This document shows positions 57,438 to 63,499 of a stretch of 64,000 nt of DNA, in pieces. Origin of the DNA: Bacteroidia bacterium (GTDB lineage: Bacteria; Bacteroidota; Bacteroidia; NS11-12g; UBA955); the NCBI GenBank assembly GCA_023653095.1, contig JAMNXP010000001.1:1-64000 (forward strand), in the 5' to 3' direction. The notes under the pieces were generated by a model that was not told the origin of the DNA, did not search any database, and worked only from the letters and a program-made list of their open reading frames with translations. Each line of letters begins with the position of its first letter. The stretch's first letter is position 1. The position numbers and the translations under genes are program-made.

Positions 57438-57468
57438 TTTGGATTCATTCTAAATAGATTTAAATTTG
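57438..57468 (+). promoter_or_regulatory. Promoter of the AraC-family regulator, leaderless arrangement
   Basis: TTTG (57438-57441), exactly 19 bp, TAAATTTG (57461-57468), then 6 nt to ATG 57475. A full consensus promoter with a start codon at the expected transcription start. Confidence 0.75.
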
Positions 57469-57474
57469 TATCTG

Positions 57475-58227
57475 ATGTTGAGCGTTGCATTTGATACAGG
57501 TGTTGCATTAATTATTGATGAAGGTTTAAATAATTTTCTTGAGAAGAGTTATTTTGAAGTCGAAAAATCAACACATTTTCTACGATTAGAATTTCATTTA
57601 ACGCCTCAAGATTCTTTATTTTCTTTGTCCAATTACACTGTATTATTTATTACTTACACAGATCCTATTTGGACCCAGTTCAATCACAATCCATTGTATT
57701 CGAAATTCAATGCAATTCAAGGCGTGAGATACTATTTGCCTTGTGAAATGCATAGTTCAATCAGCGGTATAATTGGTGTAAATCCCAATGATACATTGTG
57801 TGAAATGAAATATACTTCAATTGCATTAGAAACATTAATCTCAGCAATTCAGTTTGTTGAAAAATTAACTTCAAATTGTAACTCATGTAATTTGGTTCAG
57901 CAGAGTTCATTAAATGCGAATTATCTGCAAGGCGCTATGCAAATTATTCAAAGTCGATATACAGAGAAATTAACCATTCCCGAGTTAGCCAAAGAAATAG
58001 GTACTAATCAATGTTATTTAAAAAAAGGATTTAAACTTAAATTTGGTGACACTATTTTTGGGACGATCACCAAAATGCGGATGATAAAAGCTAATGAATT
58101 AATTCGCACTGATAGTAATAAGAAATTATCAGAAATTGCAGAAGAAGTAGGATATTCTTCGTTGAGTAGTTTTAGCACTGCTTTCAAGCAATATTGGGGT
58201 TATTCTCCCCAGGAATTAAAAAGATAA
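57475..58227 (+). CDS. AraC-family transcriptional regulator
   Basis: 250 residues from ATG 57475. An N-terminal ~150-residue sensing part precedes two helix-turn-helices at ~155-250 (KLTIPELAKEIGTNQCYLKK; KLSEIAEEVGYSSLSSFSTA, FKQYWGYSPQELKR). It resembles PchR/YbtA-like regulators that sense siderophores. The next gene, in the same direction, is a TonB-dependent siderophore receptor, its likely target. The 75-bp gap between them holds a TTCCCG direct repeat that may be its binding site. Confidence 0.88.
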   Translation: MLSVAFDTGVALIIDEGLNNFLEKSYFEVEKSTHFLRLEFHLTPQDSLFSLSNYTVLFITYTDPIWTQFNHNPLYSKFNAIQGVRYYLPCEMHSSISGIIGVNPNDTLCEMKYTSIALETLISAIQFVEKLTSNCNSCNLVQQSSLNANYLQGAMQIIQSRYTEKLTIPELAKEIGTNQCYLKKGFKLKFGDTIFGTITKMRMIKANELIRTDSNKKLSEIAEEVGYSSLSSFSTAFKQYWGYSPQELKR

Positions 58228-58249
58228 ATTCCTAAAATCGAAAAGAAGT

Positions 58250-58273
58250 TTCCCGATTTCGAAATTCCCGCAA
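58250..58273 (+). promoter_or_regulatory. Direct repeat upstream of the siderophore receptor, candidate AraC site
   Basis: TTCCCGATTTC (starts 58250) and TTCCCGCAATTTC (starts 58265) are direct repeats 15 bp apart, ~30 bp before ATG 58303. AraC-type regulators bind direct repeats, but the 15-bp period is shorter than the usual ~20. Confidence 0.35.
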
Positions 58274-58302
58274 TTTCTGTTTCACAAACTTTGCGGCTGA
58301 TT

Positions 58303-60453
58303 ATGAAAAATTATTTCACTTTTTTAGGCATTTTAATAGTTGTATTAAGTACTGCCCAGGCGCAATCAGACACAACAAAGATTGAATCAATTACACCAGT
58401 AGAGATTATTGGAAATAGTGGGTCTTTGATAGTTGACACCTCTTTCACAGTATCTAAAACCAGCGTTTCTTTTATCGATGAAATTCAGGTTGCTAGTAAG
58501 GTAAATCAAGAAGTAATCAAGCAACAAGTCATCACAGAATTAAAAGGGTTATTAGATAATGTTACTGGTGTTAATCGTTTATGGGAATCCACTGGTCGAA
58601 TTGGTGATGGCGCATCTTATTATTCAATGAGGGGATTTTCTGTTCAACCTACAATGATAAATGGAATGCCTGCGTTATCTCAAACTATCATTGATCCTGC
58701 TAATATTGAATCAATTGATGTTATAAAAGGGCCATCCGGAAGTTTATATGGAGCTGCGGTTACAAGTTATGGTGGTCTGATAAACATAAATACTAAGAAG
58801 GCATATTCGCATTTTGGAGGAGATATTACTTATATCACAGGCGCTTTTGGATTGAATAGAATTCAGTCCGATATCAATATTCCTTTGAGCAATAAAACTT
58901 CTATAAGAATTAATTCTGCAATTCATAAACAAGGTAGCTTTCAAGATGCAGGATTTAATCAATACACTTTTATTGCGCCATCAGTAAGGGTAAAGGCTTC
59001 AAAGAGGTTGACGTTTTTCATTAATGCGGAATTTAAAAACGGTGAAGGAGCAAATGCTCCTATGATTTTTTTAAACAGGTATGCTCCCTTATCATTCACA
59101 AATATTTCGTTATTTGACAGTATTTACGGTCGTTCATTTACTTCCAACGATTTAACGATTAGGAATGAATCTTACAACCTTCAAGCCCAAGCTTGGTTTG
59201 ATTTGGGAAAAAATTGGAAAACACAGACAGTATTATCTCGTACTTCATCAAAATCAATTGGATTTTACCATTATTTGTGGGATGTAAGCAACGGAAATGA
59301 CTTCACGCGATATATTTCGAGAATTGCCGGTGAAACTCAAGGAACAGGTGTTCAACAAAATATTTCTGGTTCGTTTGATCTACTGAGATTCAAAAATAAG
59401 GTATTGATTGGGTTAGATTACTTTGAAAGAAATATTTCAAATTTCGGGTCTCCGTGGATTTCAAATGGAAAAGTATCATTAAAGAATCAAACGGATTCTG
59501 GTAATTTGAGTCAAGCTTTTATAAATGAAGCAACTTCTAATGCCCATCCTTCGTTGTCTTTTGTAAGATTAGTAAATAAATCATTGTATTTTAATGATAT
59601 AATCAATATAAATAAATCAATGTCATTGTCACTTGGTGTAAGAGTTGATAATTTTTCAGGTAAACCTACTGCCTGGTCAACAGTAGATTTGAAAAGTCAA
59701 ACTACTGTATCTCCGCGTTTGGGTTTGGTTATTAAACCAATTGGAGAATCATTTGCAATTTTTGGGAATTATTTAAATGGCTTCAATTACCTCGACCCAG
59801 CAACCGTTTCAAATATCGATGGAAGTAATCCATATTTAAAAGTATTTGAACCTGAAAAAGCCAATCAATGGGAAACCGGTCTAAAATGGACAGGCTTCAA
59901 AAATAATATCCAATTCATTGCAAGTTATTACCAAATAAATGTAATTAATATGGTAATGTCTGACGCCTTAAATCCCAATGATTTCAATCAAGGTGGTAGT
60001 GTTCTAAGCAAGGGAATAGAGTTTAGTCTATCTGGAAATATTACCTCTAATGTTAAATTTATTGGTGGTTTTTCTCATAACAACTCAAAGGTAACAAATG
60101 ATGCTCCAAACGCAGGTTATTTGGGTTTGAGGCCTGAAAGTTCTGGCCCAGCTAATATGGCAAATGCTTGGGTTCTATACAGGTTACCTATTAACGGTTT
60201 GTTTGATGGATTTTCATTGGGTGCTGGACTTAATTATACCGGAGAACATTTAACTTTAAACAGGTCAACTTCTGGAACCTTTACTCTTCCATCATATACC
60301 ATTTATAATGCAAGTATTAATTGGGAAAATGAAATTATCGGTTTGGTACTAAGAGCGAATAATTTATTGGATGTAAAGTATTATACAGGTTGGTCTACAG
60401 TTTCGCCTCAAGCTCCGAGATATATTTCTTTGTCAATAAGATGCAAATTCTAA
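58303..60453 (+). CDS. TonB-dependent siderophore receptor
   Basis: 716 residues from ATG 58303 with a signal peptide (MKNYFTFLGILIVVLSTAQA). Plug: ELKGLLDNVTGVNRLWE, SYYSMRGFSVQPTMINGMPA, IESIDVIKGPSGSLYGAAVT. Barrel to the C-terminal aromatic (SIRCKF). There is no N-terminal CarboxypepD_reg domain, which points to a siderophore/haem-type receptor rather than a SusC-type. Preceded by an AraC regulator and overlapped by a PepSY protein, the common iron-uptake arrangement. Its ferri-siderophore is unknown and no synthesis genes are near. Confidence 0.92.
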   Translation: MKNYFTFLGILIVVLSTAQAQSDTTKIESITPVEIIGNSGSLIVDTSFTVSKTSVSFIDEIQVASKVNQEVIKQQVITELKGLLDNVTGVNRLWESTGRIGDGASYYSMRGFSVQPTMINGMPALSQTIIDPANIESIDVIKGPSGSLYGAAVTSYGGLININTKKAYSHFGGDITYITGAFGLNRIQSDINIPLSNKTSIRINSAIHKQGSFQDAGFNQYTFIAPSVRVKASKRLTFFINAEFKNGEGANAPMIFLNRYAPLSFTNISLFDSIYGRSFTSNDLTIRNESYNLQAQAWFDLGKNWKTQTVLSRTSSKSIGFYHYLWDVSNGNDFTRYISRIAGETQGTGVQQNISGSFDLLRFKNKVLIGLDYFERNISNFGSPWISNGKVSLKNQTDSGNLSQAFINEATSNAHPSLSFVRLVNKSLYFNDIININKSMSLSLGVRVDNFSGKPTAWSTVDLKSQTTVSPRLGLVIKPIGESFAIFGNYLNGFNYLDPATVSNIDGSNPYLKVFEPEKANQWETGLKWTGFKNNIQFIASYYQINVINMVMSDALNPNDFNQGGSVLSKGIEFSLSGNITSNVKFIGGFSHNNSKVTNDAPNAGYLGLRPESSGPANMANAWVLYRLPINGLFDGFSLGAGLNYTGEHLTLNRSTSGTFTLPSYTIYNASINWENEIIGLVLRANNLLDVKYYTGWSTVSPQAPRYISLSIRCKF

Positions 60454-61586
60454 ATAATAGAGTTAAAAGAATACTCAGAAAAATTCACAGTTGGCTCGGA
60501 TTATTATCTGGGCTAATCGTGTTTATTATGGCCGTAACTGGAACACTCTATGCCTTTGAATTTGAGATTAGAGAATCGTTATATCTTCATAAACTGAAAC
60601 TTCAATCATCAAATAGTAAATATACTATAGTTGAAAAAAAACTACCGCCTTCAAAAATTTGGCAAAAAGGAACCCATTCATATCCCAACAAAGTAATTCA
60701 TGCAGTTAGAATTTATGCAGATAATAGGCCAAGCGAAGTGATTTATTACAATAATGAAGGTGTCAATAAATACTACATCCGGTTACTGTTGAATCCATAC
60801 TCTGGTAATATTATCCAATTTGTTGACATGAACACTGGCTTTTTTGCTTGGATACTCCGTGGACATATGTATTTGTGGTTGCCTGAAAAATATGGTCGAA
60901 AATTCATTGGATATTTTACAGTGATTTTTTTGGTAACAGCAATGGTTGGTCTTTTTCTGTGGTTACCATCGCAGTTGAGGTTTTTAAAAAAACAACTCAC
61001 ATTTTCTTGGTCAAATAAAATGAAATGGAAACGTAAAAATGCCGATACACATAAAATTGTAGGATTTTATATGCTTTTACCCATCTGTATTTTCTGCATA
61101 ACAGGATTATTCTGGAGTTTTGACCTATTTGCCGAGAAATACTACCAAATGATGGGAGGGAAGGTGCCAATTTACATTGAACCTGAGGCTAATTCCCAAA
61201 AGTTCACTCTAAAAAATCTTGATGAAATTTATTATCGATATTACATTCGATATTTTAATAAAGGTTATTTAGATTTTCATGCTCCCACTAATTCAAATAA
61301 AGCCATTGAAATTGCCTGGAATCCTAATTTAAATAACTTTTTTAAAACTCGATATCGATTTTTTGACCCAAATAATAAGAGAGAATTTAAAATAAATTCT
61401 GTGTATAGCTCTCGTGAAAATCTCAATGTGGCTGAATTTTTGGTAAAATCCAACTATGATATTCATACAGGTGGTGTTTTCGGTGTTTGGGGAAAATTAC
61501 TCATGTTTATTTTTTCCTTGTTGATTGGATCTTTACCCATTACTGGGTTATTGTTTTATTTGGGTCGTAAAAAATACTTAACATAA
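60441..61586 (+). CDS. PepSY-associated membrane protein (ferric-siderophore reductase-like)
   Basis: 381 residues from ATG 60441, overlapping the receptor gene by 13 bp. Four helices: LRKIHSWLGLLSGLIVFIMA (with the conserved His of KxHxW), AWILRGHMYLWLPE near the second, and HKIVGFYMLLPICIFCITGL with YDIHTGGVFGVWGKLLMFIF later. This is the PepSY-TM family (FoxB/PiuB-like), thought to reduce ferric siderophores in the inner membrane. Co-transcribed with the receptor. Its 3' end overlaps the convergent crtY-blh fusion by 31 bp. Confidence 0.88.
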   Translation: MQILNNRVKRILRKIHSWLGLLSGLIVFIMAVTGTLYAFEFEIRESLYLHKLKLQSSNSKYTIVEKKLPPSKIWQKGTHSYPNKVIHAVRIYADNRPSEVIYYNNEGVNKYYIRLLLNPYSGNIIQFVDMNTGFFAWILRGHMYLWLPEKYGRKFIGYFTVIFLVTAMVGLFLWLPSQLRFLKKQLTFSWSNKMKWKRKNADTHKIVGFYMLLPICIFCITGLFWSFDLFAEKYYQMMGGKVPIYIEPEANSQKFTLKNLDEIYYRYYIRYFNKGYLDFHAPTNSNKAIEIAWNPNLNNFFKTRYRFFDPNNKREFKINSVYSSRENLNVAEFLVKSNYDIHTGGVFGVWGKLLMFIFSLLIGSLPITGLLFYLGRKKYLT

Positions 61587-63499
61587 AATACATGCATAGC
61601 AAATACATGAGGAAAACTGATACATGATAAGAAAATGAAAAAGATTCCAATCATTCCATCGGTTTTCCAAACGTCGAAGCAGTAAAATCCCCCGAGAAAC
61701 AAAAAAGCGCCCATAGAAAAGGGCATTGCTTTCAACCACAATTTAGAAACCGGTTCCTTGTGATTTCTAATGATATCAACTGAACTATTAAAGCTGTGAT
61801 TGAATATGAAAAATAATCCGAATGCGCTCAACAATGGTAAAAAAAGGCTAAACGGAAGCCATAATACTTCCCAAAGTCTGTGTATGCCTCTAGAAAGTTG
61901 AGCCGATAAAAAGATACCTCCAGAAAATATCAAAGCCCACTGAAAGTTGATGAAATCAATGTCTACAGACATTTCAAGCAAGATGTTTTTAAGCTCCAAT
62001 GGGTGAGCAAACAAAATGCATCCAAGCAGTGAAAGTCCCCAGAGAAAACTGTTCAATGAAAGTTTTTTGAATTCAGCTTCGCCGAAATGCCAAGCAGAAT
62101 ATAGAATGAAAAGCAATAGACCTAGATAGGCATTCACAAACCAAACCAATCCCATAAGTGCCATTTTGAATAAATAATTCACAATGAAGGACGGCTTGAT
62201 TTTAGAATCTAGCTGTTTCGATTCCAGAAGATGATCTACAGCTCCGTGAGGAATTCCCACCAAGATCAATCCCAATACTAGTATTCCATTTGAAATGAAA
62301 ACTAGGTTCAGAGCGTCTAAAATGAAGAAGGAGATTGTCAGAATCAGGGGCAGTAACTTTAAAATAGGGAGTCTGTGAAAAGTATCAGAAATGGCAGCTT
62401 TTAAGAAGGGAGCAAGGGGTAAGGAGCCCAAAATTCTTAACTCGTTCAATCCGCTAGATTCTTCGCGCAGAAATTCAATGACTCTTGACAGAGGATTTTT
62501 TTGAAACAAGGCTTCGAAAATCTTTTTTCCGAAGGATGGGTTGTTTTCAAGAATTTTCAGCAATATTCTATCGTAAAACTTGAATCTATTTGGGGAATTG
62601 ATGGTTTTGGTGGATGTTATGTGCTGAAGGGAGTTCGAAATTTCTACGGCGTGTTTACAACTTTTTAAGAAGGAATAGCCCGTACTTGGTTTGATATTTC
62701 CAGCCCGAGCACCCGTAAGAATGTGATTTTGTGAAGTTTCATGATGACTGATTTGAGCTGTAGACATCGGAATTTTGCCCTGCTCTGTCGAAATAATTTG
62801 GAATTCTCCGAATCGCTTAAGAATTTCTTTCTTTAAAAGTTCTTCTGCTAATGGAATGTTTATGGATTCTGAGTGAAAAGAAGTGACTTCCACCAGAGCA
62901 TTCTTTTGATCAAACGGAAGAATGTACAAAAAGAGGGTAGAATTGCCTTGTTCAATGGAGAAGTCCATCATAACAAAAGTGTCAGGATCAAATGCATCAG
63001 CTTTAGTTGTAATATTCCATCCTAAAAAACTCTGAATCAAGTGTGATTCATTCTTTTTGCAATCATTGAACTTTGGTGGCCGACTATCAAAAATGGTGGC
63101 CTTGTGCAATTCTACGAGCAACTCATCTGTGGCCACCTCTTTGATGTAAGTCACATCAAAATTCACTATCTCCTGGCGTGTGAAGTTATAGAGATCAATT
63201 CCAGATATGTGGAAGTATTTGTATGGGTCAATAGCCTCAGTAATTCGCTCACCCGCACTAGCGTTCTTCCAAGATTTAGAAATTAAATCTTCTAAATGGT
63301 ATTTTGTGATTTCCGATTCTAGAGCCCAAAAACAAAAGGTTCGATCATTTTCTGTTTTATTGTTGGGCTCAATGATGGCAATTTTCTTGTCATGGAGAAG
63401 GCCGTTTCGCTTCAATTCAAAAAAAAGCAGGGAATTAGCAGCTCCCATTCCAACGAAAACCAAATCAAATTCAGAATATGTTAAGTTTTTGGTTTTCAT
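61556..63499 (-). CDS. Fusion: lycopene beta-cyclase (CrtY) plus Brp/Blh beta-carotene 15,15'-dioxygenase
   Basis: 647 residues without an internal stop. Residues 1-~375 are a CrtY-type lycopene cyclase: FDLVFVGMGAANSLLFFELK (FAD-binding), TFCFW, FDSRPPKF, IQSFLGW, ARAGNIKPSTGYSFLKS. Residues ~378-647 are a polytopic Brp/Blh oxygenase: IPHGAVDHLLE (His418, His423), YSAWHFGEAEF (His471), FNHSF (His568), FPHVFAMH (His631, His636), the histidines expected to bind iron. The product would cyclise lycopene to beta-carotene and cleave it to retinal in one membrane-bound chain. In Bacteroidota crtY and blh are usually separate genes near a rhodopsin gene; none is visible within this window. Confidence 0.9.
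   Translation of the reverse strand: MKTKNLTYSEFDLVFVGMGAANSLLFFELKRNGLLHDKKIAIIEPNNKTENDRTFCFWALESEITKYHLEDLISKSWKNASAGERITEAIDPYKYFHISGIDLYNFTRQEIVNFDVTYIKEVATDELLVELHKATIFDSRPPKFNDCKKNESHLIQSFLGWNITTKADAFDPDTFVMMDFSIEQGNSTLFLYILPFDQKNALVEVTSFHSESINIPLAEELLKKEILKRFGEFQIISTEQGKIPMSTAQISHHETSQNHILTGARAGNIKPSTGYSFLKSCKHAVEISNSLQHITSTKTINSPNRFKFYDRILLKILENNPSFGKKIFEALFQKNPLSRVIEFLREESSGLNELRILGSLPLAPFLKAAISDTFHRLPILKLLPLILTISFFILDALNLVFISNGILVLGLILVGIPHGAVDHLLESKQLDSKIKPSFIVNYLFKMALMGLVWFVNAYLGLLLFILYSAWHFGEAEFKKLSLNSFLWGLSLLGCILFAHPLELKNILLEMSVDIDFINFQWALIFSGGIFLSAQLSRGIHRLWEVLWLPFSLFLPLLSAFGLFFIFNHSFNSSVDIIRNHKEPVSKLWLKAMPFSMGAFLFLGGFYCFDVWKTDGMIGIFFIFLSCISFPHVFAMHVFYVKYFLRPK

Follow-up and report, generated by a model that had tools for sequence, protein, structure and literature searches.

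A CrtY-Blh fusion gene of Bacteroidota and its predicted role as a single-chain lycopene-to-retinal enzyme

What makes a rhodopsin useful is its supply of retinal. The accessible text of a study on the apusomonad Thecamonas trahens describes a quadrifunctional CrtI-CrtB-CrtYc/d-Blh protein, which its authors suggest could synthesise retinal directly, and treats CrtYc/d as an independent origin of lycopene cyclase activity (PMC10016063). In rhodopsin operons of Alphaproteobacteria, according to the available part of another report, crtY and brp/blh are adjacent (PMC13043013), and the accessible portion of a review states that the marine Blh enzyme 66A03 needs His21, His78, His188 and His192 (PMC9227343). 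Here we examine a gene near the end of a 64,000-nucleotide stretch of contig JAMNXP010000001.1 from a Bacteroidia bacterium (assembly GCA_023653095.1), hereafter called the window, in which a single frame had been annotated as a lycopene cyclase (CrtY) fused to a Brp/Blh beta-carotene dioxygenase.

We consider it likely that this gene encodes a bifunctional membrane-bound enzyme taking lycopene to retinal, that the fused form has a single origin, and that it provides a dedicated retinal branch for rhodopsin. Judged from sequence comparison, the N-terminal CrtY half, of the flavin adenine dinucleotide (FAD) type, would cyclise lycopene to beta-carotene. The C-terminal Blh half, a predicted helix bundle in which four invariant histidines would hold iron, would then cut beta-carotene at the 15,15' position to yield retinal, and this product would serve the cell's proteorhodopsin. 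The identity of the gene as a CrtY-Blh fusion, already proposed in the initial annotation, now rests on domain models and recurrence, on the agreement between the trees of its two halves, on the conserved seam and on the link to rhodopsin.

Two domains in one frame

The frame was borne out as 647 codons without internal stop or frame change, and it lies on the minus strand, which the initial annotation had omitted (coordinates are collected in Table 1). Residues 12-367 match the Pfam model PF05834 (Lycopene_cycl) with 124.4 bits against a gathering score of 23.4, residues 410-638 match PF15461 (BCD) with 98.4 bits against 28, and the Blh half also exceeds the NCBIfam cut-off of TIGR03753 (119.3 against 95.25 bits). 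The FAD motif at residues 11-30 and the KPSTGYSF stretch at 270-277 are present where they had been placed (G17, G19, K270), and the residues that never vary among 77 fused and 31 unfused CrtY domains include G17, G19, W58, E204, P244, M245 and K270. E204 occupies the position of the CrtY catalytic acid and is a candidate for that role. The histidines named in the annotation fared unevenly: H418, H471, H568 and H631 are kept in all fused (77 of 77) and all unfused (23 of 23) Blh domains, and the remaining two proved variable (H423 is found in 70 of the 77 fused domains, H636 in 44).

An AlphaFold2 model built on 28 fused sequences, its own included, reached a mean predicted local distance difference test (pLDDT) score of 86.1 and a predicted template modelling (pTM) score of 0.73, and shows an N-terminal part that mixes alpha and beta structure, after which comes a long run of helices. 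All 50 matches listed by Foldseek against the PDB are flavoenzymes, including geranylgeranyl reductases, at low query TM-scores (0.26-0.36). A sequence search for solved structures returned no CrtY or Blh relative, its best matches being thioredoxin reductases (E 0.013).

Could one half be enzymatically dead and act as an anchor or regulator? We judge this very improbable. By spacing, with no alignment to the 66A03 sequence, His21, His78 and His188 of that enzyme may equal H418, H471 and H568, and its His192 has no obvious counterpart in either fused or unfused proteins: position 572, four residues after H568, holds G, S or A throughout the 77 fused domains. However, the 23 unfused Blh domains likewise lack a histidine there (they have S, V, A or T), and its absence is thus not special to the fusion. 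The four other histidines and CrtY residues G17, G19, W58, E204, P244 and K270 do not vary, whether the protein is fused or not.

Recurrence, seam and origin of the fused gene

The two-domain order recurs widely in Bacteroidota and is not a one-off, which answers a check that the initial annotation had called for. Of the 70 genomes in the window's family, 49 match the fusion query and 31 do so across the seam in a single stop-free frame, 28 of them end to end and three in part (the match stops at residue 606 in G024, at 519 in G063 and, at a contig end, at 405 in G069; G, C, L, f and g numbers are our own handles for genomes, contigs, loci, families and genera). A sample of the class gave matches in 104 of 395 genomes, with 34 crossing the seam in one frame under 11 family codes, and two more fusions (G429 and G368) are cut by contig ends. 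We rejected a spread over the whole phylum, because only 5 of 395 genomes sampled at that level had the fusion at E 1e-30, the window's own genome included. Three of these five belong to family f89, outside the class; one of the three carries a reported stop, its frame being nonetheless open across both domains.

A species-level scan (one genome per species, 84,980 species) yielded 429 relatives, of which the best 80 were kept. The fusion stands in one frame in 79 of these 80 loci, the remaining one ending at a contig edge; 63 of the 80 also hold a rhodopsin. The relatives are mostly labelled as uncultured Bacteroidota, and we do not trust labels such as Chitinophaga pinensis or Streptomyces griseus on some metagenome bins. 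Among viral_contigs, 72 pattern matches included no relative.

One further candidate for a distant fusion, in a genome outside the class (G580; L176, G580:C45:3000-10000), was rejected and left uncounted, its DNA holding crtY and blh as two genes in the same frame with a single stop codon between them. The same genome has a second CrtY on C16.

Given that the window's genome is a draft in 14 contigs, 75% complete, with the window on contig C1, we weighed whether the frame might reflect an assembly error, an artefactual frameshift or a pseudogene in decay. This reading is exceedingly improbable, and we rejected it on the recurrence of the identical frame in dozens of separately assembled genomes and on the codon differences at the seam. 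Among 19 close fusion pairs, the seam carries 144 nonsynonymous and 187 synonymous differences in 1026 codons, compared with 650 and 1063 in 6900 codons for CrtY and 498 and 794 in 4596 codons for Blh (raw counts, no model). Without selection, nonsynonymous changes would form the majority.

The spacing across the seam points to a direct join. The CrtY end and the first active histidine are 48 residues apart (median of 77 fused proteins, one of them mis-scored by the pattern). Unfused proteins add up to about the same distance, with roughly 4 residues of CrtY tail and, in most Blh proteins, 43-55 residues ahead of that histidine; the fusion therefore adds no linker.

Trees of the two halves tell a common history. 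In a quick CrtY tree of 77 fused and 31 unfused domains, with near copies removed, 76 of the 77 fused rows and the split gene of G004 form one clade with a starred support of 99. By the approximately unbiased (AU) test, a constraint uniting all 77 fused rows and G004 is not rejected (p-AU 0.569) and one without G004 is rejected (p-AU 0.00014). The Blh tree places all 77 fused domains on one side, with G004 as the sole split gene among them (support 91). Distances in the two halves correlate with r 0.82, against a maximum of 0.145 over 1000 permutations, and the trees share 19 branches among 28 and 23 starred ones, with 0 conflicts. When rows from f88, f89 and f52 were added (118 rows), the three f89 fusions nested among the fused rows; two rows scored as unfused, owing to a frame break inside the CrtY part (G390) and a contig end (G368), also fell inside this group.

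Unfused adjacent pairs, comprising seven rows from genus g14 and two others, adjoin the fused clade in the CrtY tree. The 14 unfused crtY-blh pairs that we measured, G004 included, overlap or lie no more than 4 bp apart when the first candidate ATG is taken, and 14 of 15 tree-placed CrtY sequences from adjacent pairs, all but that of G004, branch apart from the fused clade. In genus g14 (for example G042, G043 and G048), crtY and blh are overlapping separate genes, and a full rhodopsin match lies on another contig. The CrtY stop and Blh start of G004 overlap as a 4-bp ATGA (L126, G004:C116:1-6000, at about 1588-1597), and this pair is best read as a former fusion that came apart. Both trees are consistent with a single fusion origin followed by one later split, and the ancestor was probably a pair of overlapping neighbouring crtY and blh genes that would have been joined once. 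The window's genus occupies four separate places in the fused tree (L002/L003; L005/L007/L009; L008; L010/L012), not all on well-supported branches, and this scatter points to horizontal transfer. The fused gene has most likely spread through Bacteroidota, often along with a rhodopsin gene.

Rhodopsin and a second lycopene cyclase

As the initial annotation had stated, no rhodopsin lies within the window. Its suggestion to look elsewhere in the genome was productive: a whole-genome search gave one match, of 249 amino acids, on contig C2, the fusion being on C1. This rhodopsin contains the stretch RYVDWLLTVPLMCVEF, a D..T..E proton-pump pattern, and a glycine in its LWGVLSG stretch, placed by hand, may occupy the carotenoid fenestration site of xanthorhodopsins. 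No carotenoid gene was found among its examined neighbours, and it adjoins an RNase E/G gene.

For comparison across genomes we used 70 that carry the fusion (31 from the family, 11 from the order and 28 from the class). Rhodopsin is present in 65 of them: 27 of 31 in the family and 38 of 39 in the order and class. Placement was recorded for 66 genomes (G028, G060, G065 and G337, which have no rhodopsin, were not entered; G062, also without one, was). In 36 of the 66 the rhodopsin gene lies directly upstream of the fusion on the same strand, with 96-196 bp between the matches; the others comprise 6 with a divergent upstream gene (412-422 bp), 2 with a downstream gene, 21 with the gene on another contig and 1 with none. 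Within the family, fusion and rhodopsin are associated (27 with and 4 without rhodopsin, versus 21 and 18; p 0.004, not corrected for kinship). Seven family genomes (G031, G033, G045, G049, G054, G055 and G068) have a rhodopsin and no Blh match to this query, G045 being rated 100% complete and G054 and G055 carrying CrtY fragments. Such cells possibly obtain retinal from outside, make it with another enzyme or have a Blh too divergent for tblastn, which also overlooked that of G044.

The notion that the fusion is the cell's sole lycopene cyclase was rejected by a search for CrtYcd (PF18916), a family distinct from CrtY, which is found in 60 of the 70 fusion genomes. Of the 10 others, five (G220, G484, G213, G344 and G203, all read as DNA) have a stand-alone second CrtY, and a second lycopene cyclase is therefore present in 65 of 70, the window's genome included. 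Genomes with adjacent unfused crtY-blh pairs are alike in this respect: 15 of 17 have a second cyclase (13 CrtYcd, 2 another CrtY), or 16 of 18 once G044, later recognised as an adjacent pair, is added. Where CrtY is not beside Blh, CrtYcd occurs in only 3 of 43 genomes. Comparing second cyclases in linked genomes (80 of 87) with CrtYcd in unlinked ones (3 of 43) gives a Fisher p of about 1e-22, a value not corrected for kinship. Contrasts within families f2, f4, f16, f35, f43, f52 and f68 run in the same direction, f3 is mixed, and the sole unlinked genome of f12 has CrtYcd.

We rejected the idea that an unlinked CrtY hides a divergent neighbouring Blh, because a Blh profile found no Blh in the flanking DNA of any of the 43 genes, which was covered to as much as 3 kb on each side; on the downstream side, the contigs of G461, G357 and G456 stop within 0.1-0.7 kb of CrtY. 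The controls G047, G052 and G056 were positive, as was G044. These counts omit genomes with CrtY fragments (G057, G054, G055), broken or cut fusions (G429, G466, G368, G390), a Blh match only, with CrtYcd untested (G092, G093, G209, G260, G325, G364, G430), or weak or partial CrtY (G185, G218, G293, G377, G441), together with genomes of the phylum sample only. Among the broken or cut fusions, a separate CrtY is present in G466, G390 and G429 and absent from G368, and CrtYcd was not found in G466, G390 or G368.

A second cyclase that is nearly always kept makes a dedicated retinal branch the most likely arrangement: the fusion would form its own route to retinal, and the other cyclase would supply other pigments. 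A CrtZ-like gene is present in 68 of the 70 fusion genomes, and in 32 of 61 compared it is no more than 4 kb from the second cyclase; no Pfam or NCBIfam model matched it, and the name rests on its histidine motif. In the window's genome, crtI, a phytoene-synthase family gene and the CrtZ-like gene stand together on C2, away from CrtYcd on C7.

The pairing of two cyclases might instead be a matter of chemistry, with CrtYcd making another ring pattern, such as that of monocyclic pigments, and the fusion being the only source of bicyclic beta-carotene. We find this unlikely. The accessible text of Klassen 2010 does treat a single-peptide CrtYcd (from Algoriphagus, by the title of the reference it cites) as a monocyclase (PMC2889829). 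However, CrtYcd is present in 15 of 15 genomes tested that have a Blh match and no CrtY-type match (seven further such genomes lay outside the test), so it seems sufficient to feed Blh there, and the second cyclase of five fusion genomes itself belongs to the CrtY family, as a stand-alone protein.

A more serious competitor, if still short of an even chance, holds that both domains are active and independent, sharing one chain for equal dosage and joint expression, and that beta-carotene passes freely into the membrane and is available to other enzymes, with neither channelling nor a private branch. G004 seems to manage without a fusion, provided that its draft sequence is right. Moreover, six genomes (G101, G436, G328, G309, G481 and G264) have a Blh and a single CrtY that is not adjacent, which shows that linkage is not required; the Blh of G309, G481 and G264 was seen by tblastn alone, in G264 as a fragment. 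Against free sharing stands the second cyclase in 65 of 70 fusion genomes, which would be superfluous. The two-cyclase pattern is predicted by a dedicated branch and is unneeded by a freely shared beta-carotene pool. It is not proof of channelling, given the apparently two-protein system of G004 and the six genomes just named, and physical channelling between the CrtY and Blh sites is hypothesised.

We tentatively extend the dedicated retinal branch to a broader scheme, which we hold to be somewhat less probable than not. In Bacteroidota that have a rhodopsin, a private cyclase, fused to Blh or coupled to it by gene overlap, would make retinal without releasing beta-carotene, and a public cyclase would serve zeaxanthin-type pigments. 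The arrangement would insulate Blh from competition with the carotenoid hydroxylase, and the fusion would move between lineages as a rhodopsin-plus-retinal cassette.

Several observations weigh against a bifunctional enzyme of single origin with a dedicated retinal branch. The CrtY half falls below the NCBIfam cut-offs of TIGR01790 (84.1 against 209.5 bits) and TIGR01789 (53.9 against 215.2 bits); the same two are missed by two other fusions and by five Bacteroidota CrtY proteins without a fused Blh, including the split G004 protein, and these models thus seem not to cover this CrtY branch. The unconstrained quick tree leaves one fused row, L174, out of the main CrtY clade, making a second fusion origin possible, and the split in G004 could be an indel error at the seam, since its two frames differ and come from a single draft genome. 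In the window's own genome and its nearest relative (G066), fusion and rhodopsin lie on different contigs. No rhodopsin was found in four family fusion genomes (G060, G062, G065 and G028), two of them 96-98% complete; in rhodopsin-less fusion genomes, either the gene was missed in assembly or retinal has another use. No second cyclase was seen in G060, G019, G087, G388 and G448, four of which are more than 90% complete. The three unlinked genomes with CrtYcd are G365, G420 (by one weak domain) and G461, whose unlinked status cannot really be judged because its contig ends close downstream of CrtY. The two-cyclase statistics, finally, carry no correction for kinship.

Beside the fusion, window positions 57466-61586 encode three proteins that Pfam identifies as an AraC-type regulator, a TonB-dependent receptor and a PepSY_TM protein, and a pirin gene lies on their far side. 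The PepSY gene converges on the fusion, and the 3' ends of the two share 31 bp. This cassette looks inserted, because in the nearest relative (G066, locus L119) a matching gene, paired by eye, directly follows the fusion.

Table 1. Positions of the fusion gene, its domains and candidate active-site residues in the window, and of the rhodopsin and second cyclase elsewhere in the same genome
Feature	Position	Strand	Remark
CrtY-Blh fusion gene P0001, 647 amino acids	61556..63499	minus	open frame from ATG to stop
CrtY-type lycopene cyclase domain, residues 12-367	62399..63466	minus	PF05834
FAD-type dinucleotide motif, residues 11-30	63410..63469	minus	G17 and G19 invariant in 77 fused and 31 unfused CrtY
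E204, candidate catalytic acid	62888..62890	minus	invariant in 77 fused and 31 unfused CrtY
Seam, residues 368-409	62273..62398	minus	CrtY end joins first predicted helix of Blh half, no extra linker
Brp/Blh beta-carotene 15,15'-dioxygenase domain, residues 410-638	61586..62272	minus	PF15461, TIGR03753
H418, candidate iron ligand	62246..62248	minus	invariant histidine
H471, candidate iron ligand	62087..62089	minus	invariant histidine
H568, candidate iron ligand	61796..61798	minus	invariant histidine
H631, candidate iron ligand	61607..61609	minus	invariant histidine
Rhodopsin (L116)	G000:C2:10190-10939		nearest solved relatives 9jov and 9jou (proteorhodopsin entries)
CrtYcd of the window's genome	C7:1217-1876		TIGR03462 above cut-off in two stretches

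Significance and comparison with known systems

If our proposal is true, a single lycopene-to-retinal protein would be a compact part for tests of channelling in membrane enzymes and for microbial retinal production. The two-cyclase pattern suggests, in testable form, how beta-carotene is divided in cells that have both rhodopsin and carotenoid pigments, and the split pair of G004 is a natural test of whether fusion is necessary. For annotation, counts of stand-alone blh or crtY can miscount the Bacteroidota that make retinal.

Each domain and the order of the steps were already known. We did not find the two-domain enzyme described as a widespread Bacteroidota protein, nor its tie to a second cyclase; our search of one open-access library found no bacterial CrtY-Blh fusion, and most subscription papers, preprints and protein-domain databases, where it may be known, were outside its scope.

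Several described systems share parts of this arrangement, as far as the accessible portions of the sources go. The enzyme of the uncultured marine bacterium 66A03 is, like the fusion, of the Brp/Blh type with needed histidines, but it is a single-domain protein (PMC9227343). Adjacent gene pairs in Alphaproteobacteria (PMC13043013) and in Bacteroidota (our loci L120-L127, L130-L135 and L176) provide the same two activities, but as two proteins. The fungal fusions of cyclase with phytoene synthase and the thraustochytrid CrtIBY likewise place carotenoid enzymes on one chain, but they join other steps, use another type of cyclase and contain no Blh (PMC10016063, PMC2889829). The Thecamonas trahens protein resembles the fusion in carrying a lycopene cyclase and Blh on one chain with Blh last, and differs from it in being eukaryotic, in having four domains and in using a cyclase of the CrtYc/d type (PMC10016063).

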